Source: Pomacea canaliculata
Lineage: Eukaryota; Mollusca; Gastropoda; Architaenioglossa; Ampullariidae
Assembly: GCF_003073045.1 (NCBI RefSeq)
Contig: NC_037595.1
Span: 11,710,074-11,774,073, forward strand
Reading direction: 5' to 3'
DNA length: 64,000 bases
Shown here: piece by piece, positions 1-59,767 of the stretch
How positions within the stretch are numbered: position 1 is the first letter of the stretch
Layout of the letters: the number at the start of each line of letters is the position of its first letter
Translations under genes and position numbers: made by a program
Notes under the pieces: model-generated
Database searches by the model: none
Seen by the model: only the letters and a program-made list of their open reading frames with translations
Told to the model about the DNA's origin: nothing

Positions 1-3790
<3,790 letters not shown>

Positions 3791-10563: not shown

Positions 10564-12286
10564 ATGAGTAATATCTCGCCTTTGCTAAGGTTTGGTTTAA
10601 AACAAATTCATCAGCCACAAACACGTCAGTCTTCCTTTGATTGCAGGAGGCGCCTAGCCCTATGTCTTGCCTTCACCTTGGCAGTCGTCGTTGTGGTGGT
10701 GCTTCAGCAAGGAGAGATCATGCGGAACATTCTTAACCAGACGATGCCCTGACGACACACTTTCTGTGGAAGAGGAGGAAAGACAAGGTTACTCGAGATA
10801 TTACCTGAATGGTGCAAACGCCACCAAACAGGTTGACAAGCTACCTAATATGTCTCTCATTTCTGTTGTCAGTGGACCTGCCTCCCACCAGAACCTGTTC
10901 TCTGTCCAACGGAAACACTGGCAAAATCTTGGTGGACGTGAACGAAGAATAAATGAATTAAGAAATATAAGCGGCGCGCAAAGAAACCAACCAGGCATAG
11001 AGGATGGATACAATGATGCCCACCTACCTGATTTTATTAAATCACATAAATCGAGGAATTATTCTGAACTTATTTCTAACCTTAAAAATGCGGGGTCATG
11101 GCTTATTAACACTAATTTTAATTTCTCTGGAACGGTAACTGTTGCAGAAAATGTCCTGAACTCCACGTCTGAAGAAATCCCTCTGAAAATGGGTGGAAGT
11201 CTGGGACTGTTCTCGAAGTCTGAAGAAAGCTTGAAAGATTCTGGAAGTCAAGAACACGGCAGAAGAGTGGCTACTAGGAACAAAACCGATGTCCACCATG
11301 TTTTCTTCTTGAAAGTCCACAAAGCCGCGAGCTCCACGGTTCAGAACATTATGTTTCGCTTTGCCCTCTCACATCATCTGCTGGTGATGGTGCCCAAGGA
11401 AGGACACATTCTGTCCCAGGCTACCAAAAACTGGGAGTCCAAAGGCTATCCATCTTCCGTCAGAGGCTGCTCGCTTCGACATGTTATGCAGCCACCTGGT
11501 TTTCAATGAAGACATCATTCGCAGGCGATTACATCTAGATACCGTCTATATTGGTGTCGTTCGACACCCCCTAGACCGATTTGTCTCCGCCTTCAGCTAC
11601 TACAAAAGCAGGTACAGGGTTCCGTATTGGTGTCCATCCCAGGAAAGGATCCCATCGCTACCTACCTACAAAATCCAGCCCTCTGGGAAAATACTGGAGA
11701 CTACGTGTCCTTGACAAGAAACCGCATGAGCTTCGACTTCGGAATGGAGCTTTCCGACATGAAGAACCCAGCGGCCGTGGAGAAGTATGTGGACTACCTG
11801 CAGTCTGTCTTTCATCTAGTCCTGGTTAGTGAACGTTTCGACGAGTCTATGATTTTGATGCGGCGTCGCCTGGGCTGGTCCTTGAATGACATGATCTACC
11901 GGAATGTCAACACCTATATAGGACCTGAAAAGTCGCACGTGTTCACGGAACAGGAGAAGCTGGCCCACCGCCACTTCAACGTCGCCGACTACGTGCTGTA
12001 CGAACGGTTTGCGAAGAGATTCGAAGAGCACGTGCAAGAGGAACTGGGACAGGGCCTGGCAGAGGAAGTTGAAGAATATCGGAGGATCCTGGCCCAGGTG
12101 GCCACATTCTGTGCGGAAGGAACAGCCGGAGTCTTGTACGTCAACGCCACGGACTGGAACGACGGCTTCGAGGTTGAGCGTCAAGAGTGCAAAACGATGT
12201 CTATGTCGGAGACCGGACTGGTGGAGATTGTTAGAAACGAACAGAACCTACGAATGAAGCAGCACATACCAAACCTAAATGTTTAA
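10564..12286 (+). CDS. Galactose-3-O-sulfotransferase-like protein, interrupted by three frame changes
   Basis: The predicted enzyme is a Golgi type II membrane protein that transfers sulfate from PAPS to the 3-hydroxyl of galactose on glycans or glycolipids. A basic start is followed by a hydrophobic anchor (LALCLAFTLAVVVVVVLQQ, about residues 31-49). A long stem rich in Asn and Ser comes next. The catalytic domain has a 5'-phosphosulfate loop VHKAASST (11315-11338), a 3'-phosphate motif VVRHPLDRF with the downstream Ser (11556-11603), and a conserved TRNRMSFDFG block, all typical of the GAL3ST family. The frame changes three times: near 10745 (CCC run), near 11455-11470, and near 11615-11625 (ATTGG). 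Each is a single-base event, and the second and third cancel. They could be sequence errors or make this a recent pseudogene. An acceptor-like site (TTGCAG at about 10647) leaves the true first exon uncertain. At about 574 codons it is longer than vertebrate members (about 400-490) because of the stem. Confidence 0.75.
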
Positions 12287-14084: not shown

Positions 14085-17000
14085 TCACTCATACATGTTC
14101 TCATAGATTTCTTGTCCTATTCTGATGTACTCCTCTTTTTCTAGTGGAGTCATAAGAGCCACCATATCTTCTGTGACATCATGGTATGGTACTCGCTTGT
14201 CACCAATGGTAACTATGGGAACAGCCTCATCTTCCTCATTGCTCTCCATTTCTTCATCATCACCTGAAAAAACAAAATGGATGTCAACTTTAAATGAAGC
14301 AGAAGACACCCATGGAAGTGATCATGATATTACTTCCTTAAATATTTCTAGTTGGTTTGAGTATCTTTCTAGCCAGATATTGACACGAGACAAGTATAAA
14401 GAAACCAGAATGACAATCACATAAGTTATTTCTTCTTACTCTTTGTTAGCTGTCACCATCACATGCACTTATACTGGCACATAAAGTAGTTTGATGTATG
14501 ACATATCTGCACCACACATTTTAAGTAGACAATTTTTTATGCAACTAGCTTATAAAAATCTGCCACAGAAGTAATGAAGTATTTGACAATTCATTCTTTA
14601 GGAAGGCTTTAAACAACAAGAATACAAATAGCTGACTAAATGAGACAGAACCATTGTCCTGCTCCTTCCCACCTGCTGGAGCAGTCCCTGCACCAAATCC
14701 ATCTCTCTCTGATTCATCACTGGACTCATTATCAGGCAATCGCGATGACCCTGCTTTGGGCTCGTGCACTAGCAATGTCTGCATGATGTCCTCACTAGGC
14801 ACCATCGTGCTTGAAATCAAACGACTAGGGCCTCCATCCTTTCCACCTATAGGCTGTAGACATTATTGTGCACAAAAGTTAGTGAACTGAAAATTATACA
14901 AGGCCATCATGAAAGACATTTAACAAATCAAGTGCTTTTTGCAAATAAAACCCATTCTTCTATGATGAACAAACTTTCTGAGATCTGGGTTTCCAGAAAA
15001 ATTTTGAATGCATTCTGATTGTGGAATAATAGGGGTAATGGTAGTTGGAGAAATTCACAGAAGTTTTACATCGCTAATAAATTCTTGGAAACTGCAACTT
15101 TAAAGCAATACATATATATAACAACCAATTTTACATTAGACCAATTGATGTACATATAAAAATGAGTACCCACAATACATTTCTGGTTAGAAATACATCA
15201 CCACCTAAATAAAGACCAAAAACATATAGGAAGAAACCTGAGTACCCAGAGAAAAAAGTAAACCAAAAGATTTACCAACTTACCAAACTGTCAAGCCCAT
15301 CCAGCATTGGGACACCATCTACAGTACTCTTTTGCATCCAGATTGGAACTTCCTTCTTTTCTACTGCCATTTTATCTACGTCATCATCTACTGTGATAGT
15401 AAACTGGTGTCACTATAACCAAATTCAATATTCCGCGATGCATCTCCACTCCATATGCCATTTTCACCTTTTGTTCTTTGTTGTGGTCCAGTTGGATTTC
15501 TGTAAGTTTGTAAGAAAAAGTACAATTTAAAAACTTTTAAAAAATGCATGACAACTTATATTTTTATCCTAAATCAAAAACAATTTTTGACATTTGGCAA
15601 ATTGTACACTTCTTTATCTTGTCTATATCAAACAAGAGCAATGACTTATTTCACGTTTAAATAAAATAGTAATGTAATCTTTTAATAAGTGTAAGCTGTT
15701 CATCAAATTAGAGAAAGCAGTGCCTGCATGTATGGCCTATTCATGGTTGAAGAATGAACGTCCATTACTGAAGCAAGACAGAACCCAGATAATGAGGAAA
15801 AAAATACAAAAAGTTATCCACAAGACGTAAACATCCAGAATTTTTTTTTATGCTAACTCTAAGCAGTGTAAACCTTATTAACCTAGACTCATTTCTCCTT
15901 TTCAACCATATGAGAAACACTAAGTTTTACTTAAAAACCTGAACCCTATTCATACTTTTGCATTTTCTTAAAATCTGTTGGCTCAGGCTCCAACAAATCT
16001 GGAGCAAGTCTGATTTCTTCACATTCTTGCAGCAAATCAAAGATGGGTTTGACTTGACTGTTGAATCGAGCCAGAGAAGTGCGTGCGTCCGCTCTTGGGA
16101 GAGAACTTTCATCCTCCAATACTTCCTCTTCACAAAATGTACATACAAGTTGCTTTGTCGTGTAGTCAAGGAGCTGCCCTATTTCAAAGTCTGTAAAGGT
16201 TTTTCCACATGCTTGACATCTGCCAGAAATCACAGCATAAGCAGCTATAGCTGTCACGTTTTTTTCCTCAAAAACATCCAAGTAGGTATATTCAAATTGT
16301 ACATTTTTATTTCACAGTTTATTTTCTTACATTCACAAAAAAGTATAGTAAAAGATGTGATTTTCACTGAATTGTTACATTTTTATAAACTGCTCTCAAA
16401 ATTTGTACAAATCATTGCTGTCTCAGCTATAATTATTTTGGGGGTTTTGTTTTGAAAAAAACAACAGTATGGCAGAGCCTAGTACTCCCCACTTGTCAAG
16501 AATACTAAAAAGTAAGGTATAAGAATGTAAATTTAAAAAAAAAAACTAATGACAGCCAGCCATTGAAAAGTTTTAAAAACATTAAGATGGATGTATTTTC
16601 AATACTATAAAACTTAACATCAATTAAGGGGAATAGTCTAAATTAATGTAAAAGAAAACAGGCAGTGATGATACAACTATCACAATCCTGTCAAAATATG
16701 AAGGCAGTCATAATAAAAGATAAGCAAAGGAAGTAGCGCCACCTTAAGGGTAACTCACTTGAAATTTGCTCTACTGCTGGTGGTGCGCTCCTCCAGTTCA
16801 ATTTTTTTGCGTATGTGGTCAAGCTTGTACTTTACTACATTGACAAAAACATTGTAACTAATGAAATAATAGCTATGTCGTGTTGTTCGACCTTCTTCAT
16901 CTGTTTCCACTCGCATCCGACTCTTAAGAAATTTTTCATTTTTCAATGTGTTTAGTAAAGAACGTAGATGTTTTTTCTCATATTTGAGCAGGTCAGCCAA

Positions 17001-17572
17001 ATCATCCTCCTGGTCACACAATAAAAAATGTTCTTTTAGCCTGCATGCATATCTTTCTAAAATTGCCTTATGACAATTTTTTTCTACATGTTGCACGATA
17101 ATCCATATTCTAATTCTAATGAGAATACCAGAATATGATTTCTAAAGAAAACAACAGTAGAATAATGCAAAAACATATGTATCCAAATACATGCTAGTAC
17201 AATGCTGTACAAAATTTATCTATTAATCTCCTTTGTGTGAATACTGAGTATTACTCAGACTTCAAATTGCATCCAAAAAACAGCTAATCCCAAGAATTAT
17301 TCAAGTAACACTGATTTACTCAAGACGCAGCATTAACCACTTGAGGTTAACAAATTCAAAGATGTGGCCCTAAAGTTTGGTCGGCATAAAGTGGTAGTAG
17401 TAGTAGTAAGTTGGGCCTTGTATGTAGCTCATTCTATAATTACCTTGATACATGGATGCTTCACAAGCAAGTCAACAACTATGGCATGCTCCATAGTGTA
17501 AAATCCTCTAGCTATCATCCGCACCAACTTTTTTAAGACCACAGGCACTTCGGTTAGGACTTCTGTATCCAT
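14085..17572 (-). CDS. GTF2E1: Transcription initiation factor IIE subunit alpha (TFIIE-alpha)
   Basis: Six coding exons: 17444-17572, 16759-17009, 15956-16219, 15284-15499, 14673-14853 and 14085-14263. All have GT-AG limits and matching phases, giving about 406 residues (human 439). TFIIE-alpha recruits and stimulates TFIIH at RNA polymerase II promoters in the nucleus. The N-terminus (DTEVLTEVP, RGFYTMEHA) and the RMRVETDEEGRTTRHSYYFI block form the winged helix. A zinc ribbon follows (CQACGKTF, then CTFCEEEV), then ARFNSQVKPIFDLLQE and LEPEPTD. An acidic Ser-rich region precedes the conserved C-terminal helix (MTPLEKEEYIRIGQEIYE), which binds TFIIH in other species. The fourth exon shows a one-base loss at a TTT run (about 15400) that breaks the frame; restoring phase there makes all six exons agree. 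A 5' acceptor at 17597 implies an upstream non-coding exon. The gene is divergent from RABL3. Confidence 0.93.
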
Positions 17573-40530: not shown

Positions 40531-41455
40531 TCTTCTTCTTGTTCTTATTCACCCCCAGTGGAGCACAGGACCGCAACTACACCCCGCCATCGGACCCAGT
40601 TCTGGGCGTCCCTTTCCACTTGGGATCATGTCATGCCAGCTGCCTCCACCTCTCTGTGGACTGATCTCCTCCATGTCTGTCAGAGTCTCCCAACCCTGCG
40701 CCTCCCCTGTGGGTTCCAGCCCAGAGCTTGTTAGACTGCCGGCCGGCTTTCGCAAGGTGTGACCGATCCAGCCCCACTTCCGCTTCTTGATGTCTTGGCT
40801 GGCAGGTTTTTGGTTGGTTCTCTTCCACAGGTCTGTATTGGAGATCTTCTCATGCCATCTGATGTTGAGATGCAGACATCTGTTGACGAATGTCTGAATC
40901 TTGTTGGTGATGATGTTTGTCACATGCCATGTCTCAGATCCATATAAAAAGACTGACTTTCCATTTGTGTTAAAGATGCGGATCTTGGTGTGTATATATA
41001 AAGCCTTGAAGTTCCAGATAGGTTACAGGGTGTGGAATGCAAGCCTGGCTTTGTTTATTCGGCTTTTTACATCTTCATCTACACCTCCATCTTTGCTGAC
41101 TATGTTACCACGGTAGGTGAAACGGTCAGACTCTGTAATACATTACCCATGCAGTTAGAGTGGGGCTTTCTGCTTGTTGTTGACACACATTACTTCTGTC
41201 TTCTTGATGTTGATGGTCAGGCCAGCCATCGCAGCTTCTTCTGAGAGACAAGGGAGCTTTGTCTGTGCATTTTGTTGTTTGTGGGACAACAGGCTGATGT
41301 CATCCACAAAGTCGAGATCCTCAAGTTGCCGGGTGAAGGTCCACTGAACGCCCATGTTGCTGTTAGAGGTTGTTCTTCTCATGATCCAGTCTATGATGAT
41401 CAGGAAGATTGCCGGTGAGAGCATACAACCTTGCCTCAGTCAGCTTTCTGTTGCT
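40531..41455 (-). mobile_element. Non-LTR retrotransposon remnant, reverse-transcriptase part
   Basis: This is the same family as 29755-30480 but on the opposite strand and longer at the 5' side. The frame holding FVDDISLLSHKQQNAQ (41155-41424) carries the catalytic F/Y-x-D-D motif of reverse transcriptase. The downstream part gives KIQTFVNRCLHLNIRWHEKI and [16 protein letters not shown]. Frame changes and stops show it is inactive. The 3' end has a TTCTTCTTCTTG tail on the plus strand, the complement of the AAG-rich tail of the other copy. Confidence 0.78.
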
Positions 41456-43055: not shown

Positions 43056-46000
43056 TCAGACTGATTTGATCTTAGACTGGAATTCAGGTTTGACACAGTG
43101 CTGCCTAATCATGGCTGGAAGGTCTACAAGACAGGTGACTGGGACAACTGCCTTTCTAAACTCAGCATCCTGGACAAGAGCTTTCCAATCTTCATTTGCC
43201 TGAAAATTTTCGGCCAGTACTGAATATTTTGTTATATTTTCCTCACTTTTCTTTCCTAACCCTGTTAATAAAAGAATCTGTTAAATGATCTCATAATGAA
43301 ACACAATGGAATTAAATGCAGAAGCTAGCACCTTTTCCTCTGTTCAAAGGGGTATAATTTGGTGTCAGAAGGCAGCATGGATGAAAGTTTGCACAGCCAG
43401 CCCTCACAGGATCACAAGAATTGAATGCAATTTTCTTTTTAAGTCCTTAAAATTGGTCACTGAAGATTTTTAGGTGAATTATTTAAAGAACTTTTCACAT
43501 ACCTTCAGAGACTGAAGATGACCAATGATGTACAGGGAATATTTTGCTCGTGTAAGTGACACATTCATTCTTCTTTTGTCGGCCATAAACCTGTAACATA
43601 AGAATTGTTTATGGTCATTTTCTAACATTGTGCACTCCTCTTTATGGTTTGTCTTGAGAAGATAAAGGAAAGCAATAAATGACCAAGATACTGTCACAAT
43701 TGTATGATGCTCTTTAATATTTTGTAAGAACCAAGAAAAGGTAATGATGCTTCCTAAAAAAAAAAGGCTGCATGTGTGTGTGTAAGAAAAAGAGAGAGAA
43801 ATAATTACAATGATGAACTGATAACAGATAATAAACAGGAAGCAAAAAGATTTCTGTTTATATTTATTTTTTATGCCACTGGATGCAAAAAAGAGGGGAC
43901 AACACAACATACCCAATACTGCCCGATGTACTCTGAGCACGTACACATGATAAGATGATGATGTGTTTCTCTCGCCCTTGAAAGCTGTCTACAGTATTGA
44001 CCTCCACTTGTTTCACTCCTCTGCACAAGGAACCATACAGAGAATTTTCTAACATCAAAGTATCAAGTCATACATTTCAAACATACACTGATTATACTTT
44101 AAATGGGTATGTGTCCTGGTATTATACTGTGAACTACACACAGTAAAACTTACTTTTTTAACAGACATCGCTTCCTCATTCACACACCTCTTATAATTTT
44201 TATCTTCCCCTAGCTGTCAATGTCCATTTTTTGGTCAAATCTCTAATCAAACTTATCTGGTTCGTATCACTAAAAAATAAATCACTGTAGCCAGATGACA
44301 ATTAAGAAGAATAAGAATTTGTTTATTGACCAGGTGACACTGTACTCGGAATATGACTTGATCTTCCTTGCTTTCTCTCTCTTCCACACTTCCTTTCTAA
44401 CATGAGCACAGACACTGCCTCACAGACTGCAAAAGAACACATTCAACTAGTACTGGTTCTGATAGAAGCTATGGCAGAGTTCAGGCTATTGCTTCAGTAA
44501 AGCTAGTTGCAGCTCCTAAAATTTCACAACTGACAGGCACCTATTTTACCAAGCCTCACCTTTCATTTAGTTTTTCACAGACAAGTCGCTTCTGACTGCT
44601 GTAAGGGCAGATAATACCCATGTTGGCTGCTGATAATTTGAAGCCCAACTTTAGGATTTGACAGCAGAGTTCTGCTGTAAGTTCAGCTTCTGCCTCATTG
44701 CTTAAGGAACTGAACAGAAATAAAAACCCTGTAATTTAGGCTCGTTTCCAAATACTCTCAATGCAGCTTAAGTTATACCACTGTCTCATATATGTTTTCA
44801 AGAAGATCACTGTAAATAAATTTACAGTAGACATACCTGTAAACATTGTCCAAGAAAAAAATAATCACAGAAACACTCAAATACTAACCCAGACTGGGAC
44901 AACTGCTCTTGCCCCTCTGCAAGATCAAACACCAGGTATGGGTGCAGTGGAAAGCGCTTGCAGTTCTCTATAATCTGGCTAAAAAATTACACAGATAAAT
45001 CAACAAAAGGAATTCTGTAGGAGAAAAAAAGCTCCTTTCATATGCTCATACATAAGGTGCAACATATGCAAACACAATTTTATGCATAGATGTATGCATT
45101 CATGTGCACAAGAACATAATACATCCTCAAAGATGATACAATAACCAGATTCAATATAGGCATCTGCAAATTCAAATCACTCTGACCACAAACAAAGTAA
45201 ATAATCACATAAAACATGCAAACACAGAGATCGATTATAAAACAAATTTAATCAATGAGACGAATTTCTAAACATACTCAGAGACACTGGCACTTAAGAA
45301 TACAAGCACATGATATCAAATGAGAGATTATCATTAAGCAATATAATCTCCAAGAAAGTGAAGATGAACATTAAATTAATCAGATTTACACATTTTTTTT
45401 CCTCTTTTTATTAAATAACATCTTCATTCCTTACTATCACCAGCAGTTGTAACTTGTGGTCTAAAGGCAACTTTGTGAAACTATTAGTTTTGGGTTGGTC
45501 TGAAATTCACTCTAAAATGCTTTTACATTTATTGGGATTCTAATGGGCAGATTTGATTTGAAGTTCTGCTTTGCTTTGAAACATTTTGACTGTCTTAAAT
45601 TTAGGTCTGACTTTCCTTTTTCAGGCTCCCTTTACCTCTCGCCCCAACCACCACCAGCAAATCTCTTTCCACTTGTTACCTCCCTGAACCTTCTGTTTTA
45701 TCAGTCTTTTTGTCATACCTGGAGTGAAGTTTGAAAGTATGGGTGTGAAGAGAGGACATGGGACACCTTTGCTCGGTCAGTCAAATGTTAAAAATGTTTA
45801 TAAAGACAGCCCCCTTCCTTTTTCTTTTCTATGGAGGAAACTTGTTAAGAGCAAAGAATTAAAAGCCCTAAATGTTTGATATAGAGAAAGATGTTACCTG
45901 TCTGTCTGAAGCAGGCCACTATAAACATGATTATTGGGAAAATGGCAGATGGCTCTGTCCATGCGATACTGCACACGCAGCATCAGCAGAGGACTTTCCT

Positions 46001-49000
46001 CTTTATAGTCCTCTCGAAAATGATTATAGAGTCGCTCAAATAATGACAGCCCATAGTGTAGTGATTGTGCTTTCTGTGATTTCAAAAAAAGGTTTAATGA
46101 TAACGCATCACTAATAAATTTTAAAAAGGAACTGCACATTCTTCAAATTTTACTGCACTCAATGAAAACTTTCAGATTGTCAGGTAATTTAACATAAAGA
46201 AAACATGAATAACCAAGTATTTATTTACTCAATTCTGATATCATAAAAAAAAAAAAAAACCAGAATTCAAGGTATGTAAATTTACAGAAAATTATTCTAC
46301 TTTTACAGACAGCAGTTCCTTCCCTGGCACAGTTAATGCAGGTGAACAGATCTAATAAAAACAAACATTGCGCCTGGTTCTTCCAGATGATCAAATCTAA
46401 TCCTTCAAGGTCATTAACAGTGACCTCTTAAAAATCTTGTGATATTTGTCAATTTTAAAATTTAATATCATCATGATGAGAAGCTATAATCTCAAGTTCA
46501 TACTTGTCTACTATCACGGTAATCTACTCACGTGCTTGAGATACTTCATGCCAAATATTAATAAATATAAAGTCTTTTTAAACAGCACTAGCAATCTGAT
46601 AGCTAGGCTATACTGACAATCTGACTGTATACCGCATTAACAGTCTAATAGTCAGGCTGCACTAACAGTTTGACAACAGAGTTGTACTAACTTTTGAAAG
46701 GACAGTGGGAGGCAGCTGATGAGGATCTCCCACTAAAATAAGCTTGGTTATGCCATACTGAAGTGGTATGAGGCAGTCAAGCTCGGTGGCTTGGGTTGCC
46801 TGAGGGGAAAAAAAGTATATATGCAGTCTGGCAACAACAAATGAATAAAAAAAAAATTGTGAAGCCAACAACAAAATAAAAAAAAATAATTCAAAGCCGA
46901 AGTGATTACGATTTTATCTCTTTCTCTGAAAAGAGAGACAAAAAAGATTCTCACTTCATCAATAATGGCGCAGGAAAAGTGTCTTGAGTTGCTGCTGTTC
47001 CCATGGTCTCGAAAGACTTTGTAGATTTGTGTTGACCCAAAGCTGCTTAGGGTGCCACAAACAATGTTGGCTTGTAGCAGCACATTGCAGCGGATTGTAT
47101 AGTACTCTTCAGGGGTCAGGGTTATATCCTATTGAAATAAACACTACATGCAATCAGCAATGACCGACACAAAATTTCTATGGACTCACACATTAACTGC
47201 CATGAGGGACAAACCATTTTCATAACTTCAATCGAAAGCTGATGATAATGTTAGGAGAAAGATTTCACACCCAAATGCAGTCAGTGTTAGAAAAAAAAAT
47301 AAACAAGTCATAAATGAATGATTGGATTAATAAATGAGTCTATAAAAATGTTATTTTTATACATTCTCTTTTTCATTACCTCAGAAAATCAAAGCTCATA
47401 ACTTCTGAGGATACTTGAAATGCCACTGTGCACACTAATTAAAAAAATAACTTTTGCTTTAAATATGTCTAATCTCTGCCCTATTGCTTTTGGTATTCAT
47501 GGTGTGCATACAAGCTAAATCCACAGCATTTAGAATTCCAGATCACGTATCAATCTTACAGTCTATGTATGCCTTTCCCGTTATTTATGAAGCGTAAAAG
47601 AAACAATTGAAACAAATGTCACTACCCTCTAAGTAATGCAAGGAAAATAAGTGAAAAAGCTTAAACCAAACCTTCTGGTCATTGTGAATTATTCTCCTCA
47701 GAGGCATCTGTCTCTTTTTCAAACCATCAAGTTCTTTGACAGATTTGTCAATCTGAAGCAGCAAATAATAATCATATTTCTCAATCTACTGAAAGGTTGA
47801 AATATAAAGTTTTGGACAAATTTTAAGCATTCCAAAAGTTAAAATACCCCCCCCCCTCCTCAAAAAAAACCCAGCAAAAAACAAAAAAAAAATTCAAATT
47901 AATGCACAGTGTGCTGTTGTGGAGAGTCTGTTTAGTCAAAAGATCTGATTCACAAACCATTTACACCACCACCACTTCTTTGAAAGCATTCTTAATCCTC
48001 CCACTCAAAACCAAAAAAGTCTTACTTCTTTCTTATCTTTCCTTCTCTTGCACTCTTCGATATGAAGTTTCTTTTGCCTTATCAACTTTTCATAGCGTTC
48101 ATATTCCATCTGAACAGATTTTGGAATGGTGGTTAACTGCCTCCTTCTCATTTCTGTAGATATAATTATTTCAAGTCAGATAAGAAAACCAAGAACAAAC
48201 TACTAGGTCAGGATAGCACTACAAGTGTTCTTGAAGAATCAACAGTGAGAAAGATAACAGTATTTTCGTAGAGTTTTTACAATTTTTGTTTTGGATGGTA
48301 TGTGTTTGGAATTAAGATGAAATATTGATCTTTTGTTCCATTTGTTGTTATTTATGAAGCATAAAATAGTATGAAGACATCTGAATCTACTATATACATG
48401 CAATAAAACATAGCTACTGCTGAGTCCAATTAACCTTGACAAACCTGAATATTATCTATTATTTCATCTGTTTTCATGCATGGTTGCAACTGCTATTGCA
48501 TTAGTTGGTTACTAACAATGTTTTTAAGACAGTCATAAAGAAATATAGATACTACCACAATTTTAAGGTCACAAAAAATCTTGCAAGTGTACATAACATT
48601 CTCTGACCTTCTTCCTTAGCTTTGTTTATCCTGCTTTCCAGTGTGTAGCCTCTGACAGCCGGATTTATATTCTCTCCTGTGCCAATTCGCACCATGGAGA
48701 CTAAAATGACAATGAACACAAACTGCTTCAAACCATCCGAAGAAAATTATTGGAAGCACAAACTGGAAAGATTATTTCTTTCGTCCTTGCTTATTCAAGC
48801 AGCAAATTTCATGTACAATTTTCCAATTCATTGAGGCTTTGTTTGTAATTTGCAGGTCATAAACTTTTCTTGCTTTGAGAAGCCAGACTGCAAATTCTCC
48901 ACTTTCATATATTAGTTAAATTGTAATTAATAGTTTATAATTATTAATTTATTTGATAATTAGATAATGTGTTTTTGGTAGCTTGTACAAGTGAAAGTTA

Positions 49001-52000
49001 CCTTACACCACAATTTCAAATGAGGGAAACAAAAGCTACTCACCTTAATTTCCTTCACCTTCAGTGAATGGAACAAGACCTAACAGGATGAGTCTAAACA
49101 AAATCTTCTCAAATGTATAATGATAAAATATTATGCTTACATTTTAAACCATTTTCATTCTTCTTCTTTACTAATCGGAGCAAAAGTTCATCTGCAGCAG
49201 CATTGGAGGGTGCAGCAAGGCAGATCTTGGCTACATTCTTACTATCCTGCTCCGGCAAAAAAATATGAAGAAAGCTCTTAAAAGGCAATGCATCATCACT
49301 TTTTGACAGGCTTCACAAGACAAATATGTAATAAGCAAAGACCTCATACAACCAATTGCTGTTCTTCATTAATTTTAAATACATGAATAATCATAGACCC
49401 GTGAACTTTAAAAATAGAGAAAAGTACACATCAGAACAAATCTGCATATTGTCTTAAACTGAACCTACAAAAAAGAAAATTGATACACACATTCAGCACT
49501 ATTATAATCATCAATACCTTAACAATATTTAGGTCCCCTCAATCTTATTAATATCAACATCCTTCTTGATTGTCTGATATTCCTTAAATTTATCCTTTGA
49601 ATAGCTGTTGCAAACCGTAGCACCAAACCAGCTGAAAATCTATAGAATTACTGTTTTACACTTAGCAAGAAAATTGATTCCCATAACTTCCTGTAAGAAA
49701 GTCAGCTGAAAGGCAAAGAGACAACTCTCTAGTTCCGATTACCTCAAGAATCTTCAAGATGGTTCCAGCAATGACATGTGACTTGCCCGTACCAGGTGGG
49801 CCTTGTAGCAAACGAACACGAGGCATCTGTGGAGGTTCTTGTATAGCAGTTGCTATATTTCTGATGACTTGGGTCTGGATCTCATTGTACTTCCTTTGAC
49901 TGTCATTCTGGAGTTTCCACACACAGAGAATTAAGACAAGGAGGATTTATTCTATGTTTGATTACATGCTAAAAATTTTAACAGAATGAGCATCCGCCCC
50001 AATGGCCTCTGAAAAGTGGAGATTTTGGATTAAAGGTCACCTGAAGAGGATGTTTAAAACCTTAGTTCTGTAAAATGTAAGATATTTCCAACTTTTATGT
50101 TGGCAGCAAAACTATTTTTATTTGTTATACTTCAGGAGATCAAATACTGTTTTATTTGTATTCTTACCTGAATACCATACAATCCAAAAAAAGTGTGCAT
50201 GCCAGTTTACATATATATATATACTTAAACACATAGTAAAAGATCAAAAGTTTAAACGAAATCTCATTTAATGATAAACATGTTAAAAAAAAAAAAGAAA
50301 ACAAACCTGGGGAAAAGGCTGATTTCTCAAGTGGTAAGAATGCCTGAACACTGACTGGGTTGGCTTCAAAATATCACGCTGAAGTGGGCTACGTGGTAAG
50401 TGTGTTAGAGCCTCAAATCTCCGTAGACCATTGACGATAGGGCCAAGACTCTAAAACAAAATGAACATTATAAAGTAGAAGCCTAATTGTACACATTTTA
50501 TAGAAAAATCTTTTGAAATCAACAGAAATAACAAGTAAAAAATCAAGAGGCATATTTATAGCAGATATCAAGTGTGGCTGAAGGGACAGTGAATGTTAAG
50601 TGGTCTGATGTATACAGTAGAGCAGGGATGCCCAACCTATGGTGCGGTGCCATCCAGCCCAGGAAAAACTTCTGCCCTCAGTGCAGGAAATCGGCATGTT
50701 AGTAATGGAAAAAAAAAACCATAAAAAAAAAAAAACGAATAAAAGAGAAGAAGTATTTATCCCTACGTAGGGGCGTCTCTCAATCTTTTTTTCGATGGAC
50801 GAACATTTCGATTCAGTGCTCCGACTTGGTGTCTCTACGATGCAGCCGGACATTCAGAAGTTGGTTTCAGGAAAGCAACTTCAAATATCCCACTAATTAC
50901 TACATAATTAATGGTAAGTACAACTTGTTTCTAAAAAAAATGGTATCTGCTCTATTTTTTTTCTTTTTTGTATTTTTGTGGTGAAGCAGCCCATCACACG
51001 CATGTCGGAAATGTGTATGGCCCCCAGGCCGAAAAAGGTTGGGCATCACTGTAGTAGAGCATTCTGGCAGCCAAGCTATAAAGCTTCCCAAATATATATC
51101 ATTCACTAACCGAATGATCTGGGACCAAGATTAAAAGACCTTCTGTATTAAATCTGTTAGCTGAATTGGTTCTTTTGCTAAATACTCACATAAAGCTTAA
51201 CAAGATGGTCAGGGCTTGGGGCAAATTTTCGATAGCGCATTTTCAACATGATGGTTATAAGGAAGGCATCTGTTTTAGAGCACAAAGTGTCTCCTTCTGA
51301 AAATGATAAAAAATCATTTTGCAAAGAGAGCACAGTATGTGGACATCATGCTGTGATCTTATCTGACTCATTTCTGGCCTTTTTACACCTCTGTCACTTA
51401 CCTGAATGATTTAAGTCAATTACACCAGGCATGTCAAACATGCGGCCCTCTCAAAGAAAACTGTACTCTTTACAATTCAAATTATGCCACAACTCATCTC
51501 TTAGACCAGGTGTGCCCAACCTACAGCCCATGAGCCAGATATGCCCCGGGCAGAAAAGCCTCATGCAGCCCACTCATTTTAACTGGACAGGGTGACATCA
51601 CCCCGACGCCTCCACAGGCTTGATTTTTTTAATTCTAACTGAATCTTATGCTTTGGTATATCACTGCATAATTTCATTCTTAACATCGATGTGATTTTGT
51701 CAAAACTGTCATATTCTGACCCACAAGATTTTATATCATATTAAGTGCGGCGCTCAGGCACCACGGTCTTAGACAATGCAGACTTTGTCTCCCTCTATCT
51801 TGTTCTATCAGCTGCAATTTCTAAGTAAACAAAAGAATAAGGGGAAAAAAAATATTGACTTACTGAGTGCTGGATGGCTACTGATGACATCCTTAGCCTG
51901 CATACATGGCTGAATGCTTATTTTTTCCACATAACCCAACTGTGGTGCATTGGTGATGTTCCTGGAAGGGTTGCATTTACTTGAGTTGATGTACTCACCA

Positions 52001-55000
52001 CGCATGTCAACAACCACTACCTCCCCCTCCAGTGGATACAAACGTCCTTCCCGCTGCTGCTTTGAGATGAAACCTGGACAATATGCAACGAACAATCTAT
52101 TAACAATGTACAAATGTGACAATTACACAAATGCGCTTGTCCATCAGTGTGCGTGCGCATGCATTTACATACACATGTATGTGCTGGTCCATTGGTATGT
52201 GTATGGGCATGCATAAATGAAAACATCAGCCATCAGAACTTATGCACAAGTTGCATACAAATGACAATGAATGTATGTTATTTCACGTAATTTTACCTTA
52301 GTCATGTCAGTGCTTTATACATTTATCCCTAACAACCATGATAAATGTTTTGTTCAGATCAATGCTTCATGCAGACTCATGTTTTGCTCTCTCTTAATCT
52401 TTGTCTTGCTTACATTCTGAGAGTTGATGGTTCATTTTTTAACAGCAGGAGCAGATCAAGGCTTGCAGACAGAAACCTAAAAAACATACCTTTCCATTCA
52501 AATCCCAAACAAGTCTGATTAGAGCAACGTTGATTAGATGTGAAGCATACATTGCAAATAGACCTTTTGTTCTTCTTCTCTTTCCAACTCTTGAAAATCT
52601 GTAAAAAGAAAAAAGAATGTCATAAGTGTCCAAAAGCATGAATTCATAAGGGCAAATTTAAAACGGTTCATGATTACATTCTCCTTATCTGCTTTCAATT
52701 TCTGTTTTTCCACTATAAGATAAGAATGAACATGACCTGCATCATTATCTCCTTGATTTTCCATCTCTTCTCTATCTCAGATACAACTTTTAATGGAAAA
52801 AAATGCCAACATCTCTCAGCCATTTTGCTTTAACTTTTTCATGAATTCTTACCTCTTCCCAGATCTCCAGCAATAGAAGCGCAAAGAATATTTCCTGATA
52901 GTCAAAGATGTTTTCATATGTGGTCACCAGAGGGTACAGTTGACTATGCTTTACAATAGGGGGCAAGCTTTGTAAACTGCCATTGTCAGACTTCTCTAAA
53001 AGCACACAAAGAAGGAATTAAGTATACATTTTCACATAATTTTTGCATAGCAGGATCAAACGATCAACCCTAGTGCAGAAAGACACAATGGACTCCGAGA
53101 TTACATTACTGATGGGTCTTACATTCATACCTAGCAAAGAAAGAATAAAGCTCTTAAATCTTATGGCAAAATTAATCAGTTTCACCAAACTCAGAGGTGT
53201 AAAAGAGGTGTAAACATAATGCTGCTAAAATATCTTGAGGCATAATTATAAACACTGGTTAAAACAATTCATTTCAAACTACGTACAAGTCATGAGCTGT
53301 TAAATTTACTTTCTTGTAGCAAATATTCAGAAGTCAGAATATTTAACAAATGTCTAAAATTGGATAAAATGTTTATAAACCAAACTTAATTTACACCTTC
53401 ACATGCATAGACATTTTTTGATATTGAAAAACACTCTAAAGAAAAAGCATAATGTAAACCATATCGTTTGTAGTAATTTACATGTAAGGCTCTGAGGGCT
53501 GCATTATAATTCTGCCAGAAGCAAGAAATGCACATGGTTTTGTAAGACAGCCAAAGATCACAATAAGTTAATGATAGTACTGACCATACTCTTCCAGCCA
53601 CAGAGGCGACCAGCTCAACAACTTGGACAACAGGTCGTCACTTTGCAGCAGTTGTCCTTGGGCTGGTTTAGTGGTTCTACTGATGCCAGAGGAATCAACT
53701 GATGCATTTGAGGCTCTGAAGGATGCCATTCCCCACATGGGTGGTTGTGCTAGAGGTTGTGACCTTTTCTGAAGAAGGTTCTCAGCAAGTAGATTAGCAC
53801 TTGCTGCTGGCATTGGTGGGCGAGAAGCTGGCAAAGGATTGGATGCCAAGGCTGCAGATGATGCTGTATGTTTCACTGAAGAACGAGCACATGCTAATAG
53901 CTGAGATTTTTCTTGCGAATTTGATAAACTCATTCTCACAGTTTTGGAAGACCCCGTTTCCTTTTTTTTATGAGGGTCTTTCAATATGCTTTGTTTTAAA
54001 GTTGAGTGACTGTCTGCAGTTTTTGAGTCCTGAGATGAACGTCTTTTTCTGTCTCTAGAAAGATTTGATTGGTCAACACTGTCATCCTTGGAAGCGTGAC
54101 CCTTTTCTCTATACATTCCAGAACAATGTCGTTCTTTGGTGTGCCCTATGTGTGAAGAATGATTTCTTGAATTTTGAGACGTATCATCTCTGGATTGGGA
54201 ATCCAAAACACTGGACAAAGGTGGACCTTGATTTTCAGCTGACAATGAACTTGAACTGGCGGAGCCTGTTCTAATTTTCTTCCTCAAGAAAGTTCTTTCA
54301 TCTTTATCGGAATCAAGTAACTGGCCCTGACCGTCCTTCACAAACTTTTGTCTTTCACTGAAAGCATCATGCTTGGAAGGTTCACTTTTTGCTCTTTCGC
54401 TGCCCGACACTTTGGGTGGATTCTTGATGAAAGGAAGTTTGCTTTTCTCGCTTGTCAGGCTGTTAGAGCTGTTGTTTTTTGGGAATGTTTCTGAAGGCTT
54501 TTCCCTGTTTTCTTTCTCACAGACTACTTTACTGTTCACGTTGCTAGACTTCTTCTCATTCTTGGTGCTCATGTTGGACAGAAACAACATTGGATACTGT
54601 TTCTCCATAACCTCTTGAGTGTTGGGCAGTTCAACATCAGTATCAGGACATGGCTGTTCTGTGGTTGTTGACAACCTGCGCCAGTGAGTACCTGCAGAGG
54701 AAGGGTCACAGATAATCCTCTTGTTTCTCTCTTCCATTGTTTTCTTGGCTGCATCTGTTGAAATGCTGATGTCCTCCTTAGAATTTGACTTTTTTTGTCG
54801 TTTGGAAGGCATCTTGAACCCCTTTGTTTTGACCCAGTCAGATGACTTATTACCCTCTTGGAAATGCCTTTTTGATGACGACATCCAGCGATCATCTACT
54901 TCTGTCTGCTTTTGCTCTATGTCAGCAGTATCTCTCTTCTGCAATTCTGAATGATCAAGTCTCTGCTTGAAACCTCTCCACTTACCTCTCCGTCGACTTT

Positions 55001-58000
55001 CTGGCTGGATAGAGATCTCCTGGATGCGAGAGACAAGAGGACGTTGTTTCATCATCTTTTGGACTGCAGACTCAAGAGATCTGTCAGCCTTTTTCATCAA
55101 CTTATCACTATGCTGGATGCCATCACCTTTACATGAATAAGACTTTTTGGAAAATGACTGCCTTGGAATAACAATTGTAGAAGACTGTGCATCTATTTTA
55201 TGCTGTAGGTTTTCTAACTTTCTTCCTTTGACCATTTCTTCTCTCTCACAGGAGCTTTTGTCTTCAAGCGATACGAATTTTTGAATTTCAGGATCAGCTT
55301 GAGTAGCTGCGTAGTAGATGCTGTGATGATCCAGCTCATCAGCTTCATTATCGGGGTTTTCACTCATTTCTTCCATATCAAGCTTTTCAGCATTGCATAA
55401 ATCCACAGTCTCATGTTCTTCTTGATGATGAGAACTGGCTTCTTGGTGACTAAGTGGCAAAGCAGATGCTCGTCTGCCTGCTAGCACGAATGACTCTTCA
55501 TTATCAGCAAACTGTGGATCAATCTGTGTGGCAGCTTGAAATAAAGCACTGTCATCCTCACTATTCATTTCTGTATCAGACAGATCACTCATACTGATGG
55601 TGTCTGCAATAAGAGTTTCTGCCATGTATATTTTATCATGTGCAGAACCAAATTTTTCATTATCATTTGACACTGTAGTTCTGTTGCCATCTGCGTTGAC
55701 AATATTTATGAAAGTACCTGGTTCTTCCTTTGAAGAATTAGGGGTTGGAAATAAAGTGCATGATTTCCCTGTTGCGACAGTCATGGGTTGTGTTCTGGAA
55801 ACATGTAATTTTTGCAAGTCTTCAACTGTTGCCATTCTGTGAGCAGTTCCTTTTTTTAGTTTTCCTTCATTGATGGTATCTCGATTACAATGGGCTGTTT
55901 CAGACGCATTTGTAGATTTAGGGCCAGTGACATCTATGCTGCAAGAGCTTGCACATACGCTATCTTTTGTCTTAACCCCTGTACCACATATTCTGGACAA
56001 AATTTCTTTCAATCGCTCAGAGCTTTTCTTTAATTTAGCCCTTTTCAACCATTCCTTTGAATTTTGTTCCAGCATCTGTTGGCTTTCTATGGATGGCATA
56101 CTTTTCTGTGCCATTTGTTTTTGAACATCAGGTCTTTCCATTGGTGCTGTATCCACCTGTGTTGCTACCAGACAAAGTGCGTCATCCATACCATCATCAA
56201 AATCATCTGCATTGTTTGCTGTCTGTGCACTCTCGGAAAGTGAAACTATACCACTCTTGGAAGATTCACTCTCCCCATAATCTGCAAGTCCTTTAGAGGG
56301 CGCCTTACTGGTCAAACTGCTCTTTGCATCAGAATCATGATAATCATGCATTAGGCCAACATTTACTTGTGTTTCAGCCAAGTACCTAGCATCATCATCA
56401 CCATCATCATCATCACCACCACCAACTCCTTTAGACTCATAAGCTAAAGTTGGCTGATTATAAAGTGAAGTCTCAGCAGCTGTGCGATTTTGGTCAGCTG
56501 CAAATTTCTCTGGTGCTGTATCTTGCATTTGCTTGCTTGTTTCTGCAGCATCTACCTTCTGTGCATTATTAACAAGCAAGGTGCCATCTCTTTTGAAACG
56601 CTCAAGGTCACTGTAACCCTCATGTCCTTTAGATAATGTTGTCTTGGTTGAACTGCTTTTCACCTTAGCCTTACTATAGTCATGAAGATGAAGAAAATCA
56701 TCATCTTGTTGTGTGTCAGTCACATATACATCATCATTATCATCACTATCAAGAAAACCATAATTATCAACCAAAGTTGGCTGATCATAATTCAAAATAG
56801 TGTTAGTTGTTGAGACTGAATGTACTGCAGAATTGTCTACTGTTCTCATTTGTACATGGTCACTTGCTTTTGCTGTGTCTGTTACCTGTAAACTTCCTGC
56901 AGGTGATGCTGCACCACTCCAGGAGGATTCCAAATCAGTACACTCTTCAAGTCCTTCACACATTTTTTTTGCTGAAATTTTCTTCACATGAAGGTCATTA
57001 CATTCATTCAATAAATCAACATCTGGCTGTGTTTCAGCCAAGTACATATCATCATCATTGTCATCAAAACAACTGTAATCATCAACCAATGTTGGCTGAT
57101 CATAAGCTGAAATGTCATCATCAGCTGTGGGAATTGTGGATGCCCCAGCATTGTCCCAAGATCTCTTCTGCACCTGCTTGCTTATGTCTTCAAACAAGTC
57201 ACCATCTTCCTCATCACCACCCATCAATTCTTGTTGATCTTCACTGGAAATAACACTTCCTGTTTTGTTTTCTTCTGTAAGGCTTTCCTTTTTTACTTCA
57301 ACCTGTGTGAATCTGCTATACAACTCCTCTTCTTCTGAATCAAACACAATGACAACATCTTCATCTTCTAAAGAGTATGAAATGCTTTCCTTAGCATCAC
57401 CCTTAAATGTTGCAGACACAAAACTGGAATCTGATTTCTCACTCTCAAATTGGGCTTTAATTTCCATAGTTTTCATTTCAGAATCTGGCAATACATTGCA
57501 GGATCTTTTTATTTTTCTAGTGTCCGTTTCCAGCCACTCAGTCACCTTTATGGCAGACGAGTTAGAACAATTGGGCATGGTTGTTATGGCAAAAGTTTCT
57601 CCAACACAGTCTTTGCCTGTCTGTTCTTCATCAGAAGGTTCACCAAACAATAGCTCGCTCCGACTGCTGTCACTGTCTTGCTCTGCTGCCTCCTCTAGCC
57701 CAATAGAGTCCATGATGCTTTTTTCAAAGTGCTGCTGCTTCTGTTCAACACAATTTTCCTTGCCTGACTTTGCCTTCATCATGTGATCAACACCATCATC
57801 TGACTGTTGGCCTTGCAATATTTTTTTTCTACTTTTGGAAAAATCTTCCATAGGCTGAGCAGCCAAACTTGAAGCAACTTTGTCAACTTCATCACAGGGT
57901 TGAGTCATGTCATCAAATCCTGACAATGAATGTGGAGATTGTAGCCCAGTTGCTGTGTCAGTTTCTGACATGTTGGTGGAGTCTTTCAACTCATGTGAAT

Positions 58001-59767
58001 TTGTATCTGAAACTTTACCACTAAAGTCTGCAAGACTGCGACCTGCTGCCAGCGGATAGCACAAAATTGTAAAGGAACTTTCTCTCAGGGCAGCTTCTTT
58101 TGTTGCAATCTTCGTTGATGGGCATTCTTCTTCAAGACGCTTATAGGCAGCCTCATTTGTGCTTTTGGGTTGGTCTGTATTTGATAACTGACCTTTCTGT
58201 GCACTGGTGAACTGGCACTGACTAGTCTGAGTTTTGATCTGTGCACCATGATCTCTAAGAAATGATATATCAGCATCAGAATTCCCTCTGCTTTTCTTAC
58301 TCCTCTCATGAAGAGCTCTGCTTAATTCTAGTTGATCAAAACCAGAATGCAACTCTTTCTTTCTACTCTCAACATCATCATCACCTGAGCAACAAGATTC
58401 AATACTCTCCTCAGAATTATTGCTGCTGCTATAGCGACCACACTCATTTTTTCCATGCCATATAGCATCTCGAGGTCGTTTTCTCAAATTCTTTGGAGGA
58501 TGCCTCGATGTCTCTTTTTGTGAGATTCTCTGCTCAACCCTCCCAACATCCTGTGTGTCATGAACTCCAGTACTTTGATGTGATGATTTGGCCAGACTTA
58601 ATCGTCTTGAGGGCAGATTTAGTTTTGGCAATTCAAATTCTTCTTCCTCTGAGGTTTTCTCTTGATGTGTATCAGACGTCTGCTTTAGATAAAGACAAGA
58701 ATGTTCTTTATCATCTTCACAATCTGTAGAACTCACATCTTCTCCTTCTTTCACCCACCTTGCCTTGATTCCCTTAAATTCTGAGCCCTCGCTTTCACTC
58801 ATTCTGATCTCAACCATGTTCTCTAGCTCTGAGGCAACATCAGACTCCTGTGAACTTGTATCTGGAATGATGCAATCTTCATCTGACACAAGTGTTTCAC
58901 TGCTCTCCACCGTGCTGGTCCTCTCATCCTGAGCCCCTTTTACCTTGTGGCATAGCCTGTAAGACCCAACCAAAGATATCATCAGAGGCGTATCTAGCTC
59001 GGATCCTGACTTCACCCCAAACTTCTCTGGTGATGTCAGTTCTTCCTCTGTTGTAGAAGGAACAATAACCATTTCATTTGGATCGACCCTGCATTGTGGT
59101 GCTTGGGCAGTTGTTTTTATCATTTTTCTTTCAAGAAGAATAGGGTCTTCTGAAAAACCTACATGCGGATATTTTCGTTTTGTTGTTGACGGTGATGTTT
59201 TAGAAACTGAGGCTGCAAGAGCCAATGGGGTTAAAGGTGACGTGGGAGAAGCTGCTAGCGTAGATGTGGAAGGGTGATTTTTGTTGGTGGTGCAATTGTC
59301 AAGTCCTGGTAACAGAAAAATGTTTTATTTAAAGTTACTAAGATCAAATGATTAGTCTCATCAATCAGTCATATAGGTGCATGAAAAGATGTGTGTACAT
59401 GTACACACAAATACATACACCATGTGCATTCACACACAAAGTACAGTTTGTGATAAGTGCATTTTGTGACAGGATCTCACTCTCAGAAAAATATGTGCAT
59501 GCATGCACACACACACACTTTATTTTTATCAATGCTGAACCTTGTGAAAGAGGGACCAACTCTGCAACACACACACATGCATACGATATCTAAAGTAGGA
59601 ATAGTTTATTACAAAGCCTCACTCTTCAGAAGGGCTTCATGGCCTAGAGTTGAAGGATGGTGGCGCTTCATATGTCTTCTCAAGGTGGAAGGGTTTTTCA
59701 TTTTTGCACCACATTTTTCACAGCTATGGTTTTTAAAGGCAGTCTTGTTAGACAGCCCCCTTTCCAT
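43056..59767 (-). CDS. SETX: Senataxin-like superfamily 1B RNA/DNA helicase with N-terminal C2H2 finger
   Basis: Twenty coding exons: 59623-59767, 53585-59305, 52853-52995, 52490-52598, 51864-52073, 51190-51296, 50307-50450, 49743-49907, 49141-49246, 48608-48700, 48026-48153, 47672-47752, 46955-47128, 46692-46799, 45898-46073, 44889-44978, 44560-44709, 43913-44020, 43503-43590 and 43056-43199. The sum is 8,190 nt (2,729 residues; human 2,677). Senataxin unwinds R-loops and aids transcription termination and genome stability in the nucleus. Helicase motifs are GPPGTGKS (49779-49802), Ia APSNAAADELL, II IIDEATQ (split between exons), III LVGDPHQLPPTV, IV VQYRM, V VNTVDSFQGRE and VI NVSLTRAKYSLYIIGHL. 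A C2H2 finger (C16, C19, H32, H36) precedes an acidic, Ser-rich region. Splice phases agree across all exons. The C-terminal tail after motif VI is far shorter than human. The start is uncertain: the first exon may begin at 59834 and follow an exon at 61685-61764. Confidence 0.9.
50623..51051. mobile_element. hAT-like non-autonomous element in a helicase-gene intron
   Basis: The terminal sequences CAGGGATGCCCAACCT and AGGTTGGGCATCACTG are near-perfect inverted repeats. Flanks CAGTAGAG (50615-50622) and TAGTAGAG (51052-51059) match at 7 of 8 positions, an 8-bp duplication as hAT elements make. At about 429 bp it has no transposase frame. Confidence 0.75.
51428..51570. mobile_element. hAT-like terminal fragments
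   Basis: CAGGCATGTCAAACATGCGG and GTGTGCCCAACCTACAGCCC both look like left ends of hAT-type elements (CAG...CAAAC/CAACC...GCGGCCC). No matching right ends or duplications were found, so these are probably truncated. Confidence 0.4.
53585..59305 (-). other. SETX: Giant internal exon of the senataxin-like gene
   Basis: The exon is 5,721 nt of uninterrupted frame, from acceptor TTACCAG at 59306 to donor TATG|GTCAGT at 53584. It encodes about 1,906 residues of mostly disordered, acidic and Ser/Lys/Asp-rich sequence with DDD/EED clusters and many SQ/TQ sites. The frame stays open from the acceptor, so the first start-like codon at 59225 (TTG) is not the true start. The last 20 residues (LLSKLLSWSPLWLEEY) begin the conserved helicase-proximal region. 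Human senataxin also codes its central region in one very large exon. Confidence 0.85.
55293..57101 (-). repeat. Thr-Gln-x-Asp cluster and diverged protein repeats in the helicase
   Basis: TQPD (residue 807), TQQD (913), TQVN (1027), TQVD (1097), TQID (1308) and TQAD (1383) each follow an acidic run and a Tyr/Leu-x-Ala/Thr-Glu/Asp/Ala lead. The first three belong to units that begin with a QPTL motif (DQPTLVDD at 784, DQPTLVDN at 889, NQPTLAYE at 998), spaced 105 and 109 residues apart. Numbering assumes the ATG at 59767. Confidence 0.8.

Follow-up and report, generated by a model that had tools for sequence, protein, structure and literature searches.

A senataxin-like gene with one long internal exon

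The stretch of DNA analysed here, which will be referred to as the window, comprises 64,000 nucleotides of contig NC_037595.1 of Pomacea canaliculata and carries a predicted Sen1/senataxin-like gene on the reverse strand (Table 1). Its long internal exon, whose borders were set by eye (acceptor 59306, donor 53589), lies upstream of the helicase exons on the same strand. When the helicase exon pieces were joined by hand and compared with the PDB, the best matches were a chain named '5'-3' RNA helicase-like protein' (2.4e-47) and SEN1 (4.5e-47), with chains of these two names ranging from 2.4e-47 to 4.1e-45, and UPF1 (3.4e-42), DNA2 and SMUBP2 ranked behind SEN1. A single helicase exon likewise had SEN1 as its best match (4.8e-8 compared to 2.9e-6 for UPF1); for the P-loop exon by itself, zero PDB matches were obtained at E 0.01. 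Since these matches place SEN1 ahead of UPF1 and the exons carry AAA_11/AAA_12 domains, the name senataxin-like given in the first-pass annotation is a fair one, although SEN1 leads UPF1 only modestly. Searches of the snail's own genome covered the assembly containing the window (440 Mb, 24 contigs), in which the tested helicase exon had one close copy and four weaker matches (42-57% identity).

No folded domain was recognised in the long exon: Pfam gave none at E up to 1, NCBIfam, a prokaryote library, was without match, and the best PDB sequence for the 717-residue middle region had an E of 0.91. A dispersed repeat or a paralogous gene was rejected as well, as a search of the own genome (E up to 1) gave no match to this middle region apart from the region itself. 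DNA matches elsewhere in the genome came down to one trinucleotide-repeat stretch of about 35-47 bases.

Several other features were observed in the window. Shortly past the helicase exons lies a piece of a reverse transcriptase (RVT_1, E 2.5e-11), probably a retroelement remnant. Two exons encode TFIIE alpha (PF02002, E 1.8e-16); in the second, a zinc ribbon also matched below threshold. Another exon encodes a SAM-domain protein (SAM_1, E 1.4e-13). In a galactose-3-O-sulfotransferase coding sequence the match shifts between two overlapping frames, which may reflect a frameshift, an intron or an assembly error.

Table 1: Features of the window (positions in nucleotides of the window; residues numbered in the 1918-codon frame).
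Feature	Position	Strand	Details
Long internal exon, senataxin-like gene (predicted)	53590..59305	-	open frame 59324-53571, 1918 codons
Helicase exons, AAA_11/AAA_12, UPF1/Sen1 type	region 43482..49946	-	profile and PDB matches
Tandem unit 1	56874..57188	-	105 aa, residues 713-817
Tandem unit 2	56547..56873	-	109 aa, residues 818-926
Tandem unit 3	56208..56546	-	113 aa, residues 927-1039
Module 1, TQPD, Thr 765	57009..57074	-	Thr codon 57032
Module 2, TQQD, Thr 871	56691..56756	-	Thr codon 56714
Module 3, TQVN, Thr 985	56349..56414	-	Thr codon 56372
Module 4, TQVD, Thr 1055	56139..56204	-	Thr codon 56162; Cys at -4
Module 5, TQID, Thr 1266	55506..55571	-	Thr codon 55529
Module 6, TQAD, Thr 1341	55281..55346	-	Thr codon 55304
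Doubtful extra site, TQVE, Thr 673	57285..57350	-	Thr codon 57308; acidic, Tyr at -4; matrix score 6.4
Related copy, Thr 1237	55602..55637	-	Leu replacing Gln after Thr; matrix score 14.2
Tyr-x-Gln-Pro-Thr-Leu elements (units 1, 2, 3)	57078-57104, 56763-56789, 56436-56462	-	
Aliphatic stretch between acidic residues	57324-57368	-	aa 653-667
Group of five SQ	53904-54200	-	aa 1709-1807
RVT_1 fragment	41158-41439	-	
TFIIE alpha exons	16758-17141 and 15949-16311	-	
Galactose-3-O-sulfotransferase coding sequence	11388-12283	+	
SAM-domain protein exon	2500-3390	-	

TQ-x-D sites are enriched in the long exon

Five TQ-x-D sites and one TQVN variant had been reported in the first-pass annotation, and all six were found at the places noted in the 1918-codon frame, the first Thr and the last Asp coinciding precisely with the ends of the reported span of 55293-57032. 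Shuffling of the whole exon yielded a mean of 0.56 TQ-x-D compared to the five observed (P 0.0002), so that in this preset comparison with shuffled sequence the count clearly exceeds what composition predicts. The expectation remained at 0.51-0.60 when shuffling was confined to blocks of 30, 50 or 100 residues, which preserves local acidity; chance from composition is thus excluded by both procedures. The exon contains 12 TQ and 10 SQ in total. Only TQ combined with a +3 Asp is in excess, since no enrichment was detected for SQ-x-D (0 against 1.17 expected), generic T-x-x-D (11 against 10.9) or [ST]Q (22 against 20.3); SQ (10 against 13.7) and S-x-x-D (26 against 22.5) showed no excess in the exon either. 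Scans for relatives, one in a prokaryote and one in a viral contig collection, gave 16 and 2 pattern matches, respectively, none of which was confirmed.

The sites share an extended module

Each site belongs to a module some 22 residues long that consists of an acidic run, a mostly hydrophobic residue at -5 (Arg in one module), a mostly aromatic residue at -4 and Thr-Gln-x-Asp/Asn. Thr and Gln are invariant in the six modules, their codons varying synonymously, and Asp occupies +3 in five, with Asn in the sixth. The similar acidic and aromatic setting claimed earlier holds, as acidic residues precede every site and -4 is aromatic in 5/6 modules (Cys in one), or in 6/7 counting TQVE. The description of the region as the acidic middle of the protein applies in part: the modules are locally acidic, but the share of Asp plus Glu in residues 660-1360 (0.201) is only slightly above that of the preceding part of the exon (0.179; 0.122 in the part that follows), and acidity is therefore local to the modules. 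Ser was found at the acceptor position in none of the six modules, despite being twice as common as Thr in the exon (Thr share of Ser plus Thr 0.327), which would suit a reader specific for phosphothreonine (pThr), bearing in mind that the six are not independent.

The pattern [YF]xxxTQx[DNE], including TQVE, occurs six times compared to 0.06 by shuffling, and [YF]xxxTxx[DNE] nine times compared to 1.13 (six compared to 0.88 without tandem units 2 and 3). No excess was observed for [YF]xxxT without Gln (7 against 4.6, P 0.17). A matrix trained on the six modules pointed to a sole further place, the copy at residue 1237, whose score of 14.2 compares with a 95% point of 13.5 and a maximum of 19.7 for the best scores in 200 shuffles; TQVE scores within the shuffles. 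Just upstream of the array, an aliphatic stretch between acidic residues resembles a SUMO-interacting motif and is a putative one.

Three of the six modules arose by tandem triplication

Units 1-3 align along their length, which makes half of the six sites tandem copies. Around modules 1-3, DNA self-comparison detected 72-78% identity in stretches of 65-96 bases. The six sites are consequently not independent, three of them having arisen when a unit of 105-113 residues was triplicated in tandem. Each unit also carries one copy of a second repeated element, Tyr-x-Gln-Pro-Thr-Leu, in which Tyr lies at -4 of Thr and, in units 1 and 2, Asp at +3. Trinucleotide-repeat DNA was observed within the acidic part of unit 3. 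The argument that repetition speaks against chance stands insofar as the excess persists after the units are collapsed, but not as independent recurrence, the repetition being partly tandem duplication. Without units 2 and 3, four TQ-x-D remain compared to 0.45 expected (P 0.0016); on additional removal of the Thr 1055 site there are three compared to 0.43 (P 0.010). TQ alone was only marginal after the collapse (10 against 5.7, P 0.053).

Once Thr, Gln and +3 had been masked, the flanks of the sites at 765, 871 and 985 resembled one another at z 9.0-10.8. Similarity was further obtained for 985/1055 (z 5.8), 1266/1341 (z 3.9) and 1055/1341 (z 3.4), the latter two little above the best pair of a site with a control (3.0), while the remaining pairs of the six sites and every pair with 673 gave z below 2. 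Two of 28 site-control pairs exceeded 2.5, one being site 1055 paired to control 474 (z 3.0) and the other site 1266 paired to control 257 (z 2.7). These flanks suggest that modules 5 and 6 belong with the others, and the six sites may represent one old family.

Between tandem units, dN was 0.23-0.45 in the core and 0.53-0.88 outside; the corresponding ranges of dS were 0.42-0.76 and 0.45-1.94, and here too the core had the lower value in most comparisons. The resulting dN/dS values were about 0.51, 0.37 and 1.07 for the core of about 31 codons and about 0.38-1.35 outside, and the pattern of a constrained core appeared only in the comparison of units 1 and 3. Substitution rates thus lend mixed support to constraint and do not amount to proof of selection. 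The array itself is real, non-random and partly tandem-duplicated, and the extended module defines it more closely than the first-pass annotation did.

Comparison with known phosphothreonine docking arrays

The first-pass annotation had likened the sites to the TQxF array of MDC1. The passages on human MDC1 in PMC11884936 place four TQxF sites between residues 699 and 768, the Thr of which is phosphorylated by ATM, with Phe at +3, where Pellino FHA domains select an aromatic residue. The comparison holds in that both are DNA-damage proteins with several TQ sites gathered in a single stretch. It fails at +3, which is Asp or Asn here and aromatic in none of the six sites, and this speaks against an MDC1-type reader. 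Moreover, the sites of the snail protein span 577 residues, belong to a helicase protein and mostly have an aromatic residue at -4. The FHA domain of RNF8 also prefers an aromatic +3.

One FHA ligand with +3 Asp was found, in yeast. As described in part of PMC3146460, FHA domains select pThr over pSer, a Rad53 FHA1 ligand (Rad9) has Thr with Asp at +3, and the Dun1 FHA domain binds a TQ-cluster peptide lacking +3 Asp. Thr with +3 Asp occurs in five of our six sites, whereas the yeast ligand lacks Gln at +1. In the excerpts covered of the FHA literature, a preference for +3 Asp was not seen for any animal FHA domain, and the Afadin FHA complex is described there as phospho-independent. The own genome yielded 14 FHA exon matches that exceeded the curated cut-off. 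Two of them are parts of one gene, and one of this pair matches RNF8; another FHA exon matches nibrin. Nine BRCT exons were found, none of them clearly MDC1, which may nevertheless be present. We know of no FHA domain that requires an aromatic residue at -4.

SQ/TQ cluster domains, defined by three or more S/TQ in a stretch of 100 residues, resemble the array in grouping PIKK consensus sites. They differ from it in that here SQ is unenriched, the sites lie 70-211 residues apart and what is repeated is an extended module; the array contains one set of three S/TQ that close together (985, 1055, 1081), with [ST]Q overall unenriched. On the C-terminal side of the exon, five SQ within about 100 residues form a possible S/TQ cluster.

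A candidate docking platform and its alternatives

Our preferred reading, to which we assign a probability of roughly 0.35, is that of a duplicated array of short linear motifs serving as a pThr docking platform with an acidic +3. Thr and Gln in an acidic setting fit ATM/ATR-type kinases. The module-bearing region of the exon would be disordered, such kinases would phosphorylate the module Thr after damage or R-loop stress, and several pThr sites would then dock a pThr-specific reader (FHA or similar) that accepts an acidic +3, thereby concentrating the partner on senataxin. The array would act like that of MDC1, but through a different reader. This reading is favoured because TQ-x-D remains enriched after collapse of the tandem units, because Thr, Gln and largely Asp are retained while the Thr and Gln codons vary synonymously, and because masked flanks are similar for 985/1055, 1266/1341 and 1055/1341. 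The pThr preference of FHA domains together with the one Rad53 FHA1 ligand, and the FHA exons of the own genome, including those matching RNF8 and nibrin, point in the same direction. Against it stand the +3 Phe in the MDC1 ligands of RNF8 and Pellino (PMC11884936, in part), the Leu replacing Gln in the copy at residue 1237 and the mixed rates between tandem units.

The repeated TQ-x-D might instead be functionless as such, a by-product of an acidic linker that grew through tandem duplication, as the triplication, the trinucleotide-repeat DNA in unit 3 and the lack of consistent constraint on the core in dN/dS would allow. The persistence of the excess after unit collapse, the retention of Thr and Gln in six copies while flanks change and the same core in modules outside the triplication argue otherwise, and we consider this explanation possible but rather unlikely. 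Alternatively, the acidic run and the -4 aromatic could be the working parts of a non-phosphorylated docking motif, TQ being incidental or regulatory only, with a basic cleft such as that of RPA70N as an example of a partner for such an acidic-aromatic motif. The aromatic -4 in most modules and in TQVE, both enriched aromatic patterns, the Tyr at -4 in the second element of each tandem unit and the Gln-less copy at residue 1237 are in line with such docking; yet it has no need of the Gln kept in all modules, and [YF]xxxT without Gln is unenriched, which leaves it unlikely. Constitutive phosphorylation as a charge switch would employ the CK2 consensus S/T-x-x-D/E. Five of the six modules, as well as the second element of units 1 and 2, contain T-x-x-D, but neither T-x-x-D nor S-x-x-D is enriched in the exon and both the +1 Gln and the lack of Ser would go unexplained, making CK2-type sites improbable.

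Docking of the dynein light chain LC8 through TQT-like motifs was considered because TQ[VI][DE] resembles the LC8 anchor and ASCIZ has a multi-site array. While the T-Q-V/I-D/E of some sites resembles a loose motif given in part of PMC3078936, the sites combine bulky hydrophobic residues at -4 and small ones at -3 with Pro, Gln or Ala at +1, contrary to the preferences stated in the relevant sections of PMC6607443, where a human TQVD peptide (SCRN2) is among the non-binders. The array thus shares repeated TQ with that of ASCIZ and departs from it in flanks and +1. A matrix derived from 16 human binders is weak, as 27 non-binders score 1.0-14.3 and +1 Val is penalised because it is absent from every chosen binder; on this matrix the seven sites scored -1.8 to 5.1, all below the binders left out singly (7.1-21.6). 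Binding of senataxin to DYNLL1 was not found in the open-licence literature, judged by titles. Given this departure from the anchor and flank preferences, LC8 docking looks very unlikely.

Implications for senataxin

Senataxin is a helicase that clears RNA-DNA hybrids. To our knowledge, its control by damage signalling is little understood; the human protein presumably has a TQ-x-D site as well. Mutations in senataxin lead to the ataxia AOA2 or to the motor neuron disease ALS4, as stated in a review on SUMOylated senataxin, in the main text of which the stem 'phosphorylat-' is absent (PMC8683630, in part). In the accessible parts of the open-licence literature mentioning both senataxin and FHA, senataxin was not found as an FHA ligand, the FHA mention in PMC12714266 concerning Mek1 and Hop1. 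No open-licence paper was found for senataxin together with SQ, TQ and phosphorylation, print literature beyond that scope being possible; a search of these papers for a human peptide was likewise without result, and among the matches listed for its phosphorylation by ATM/ATR nothing was usable.

The repeated extended TQ-x-D module offers a specific candidate for a docking platform under kinase control, one that can be tested at low cost; should a reader be found, it would represent a new FHA specificity in animals. A more far-reaching proposal, which we regard as doubtful, is that animal senataxin carries a multivalent platform of aromatic-x3-pT-Q-x-D modules, expanded in tandem in this lineage, by which ATM/ATR would be linked directly to R-loop resolution. 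If true, such a platform would imply that animals have a pThr reader, an FHA domain or another kind, that has yet to be described and prefers an acidic +3 and an aromatic -4.
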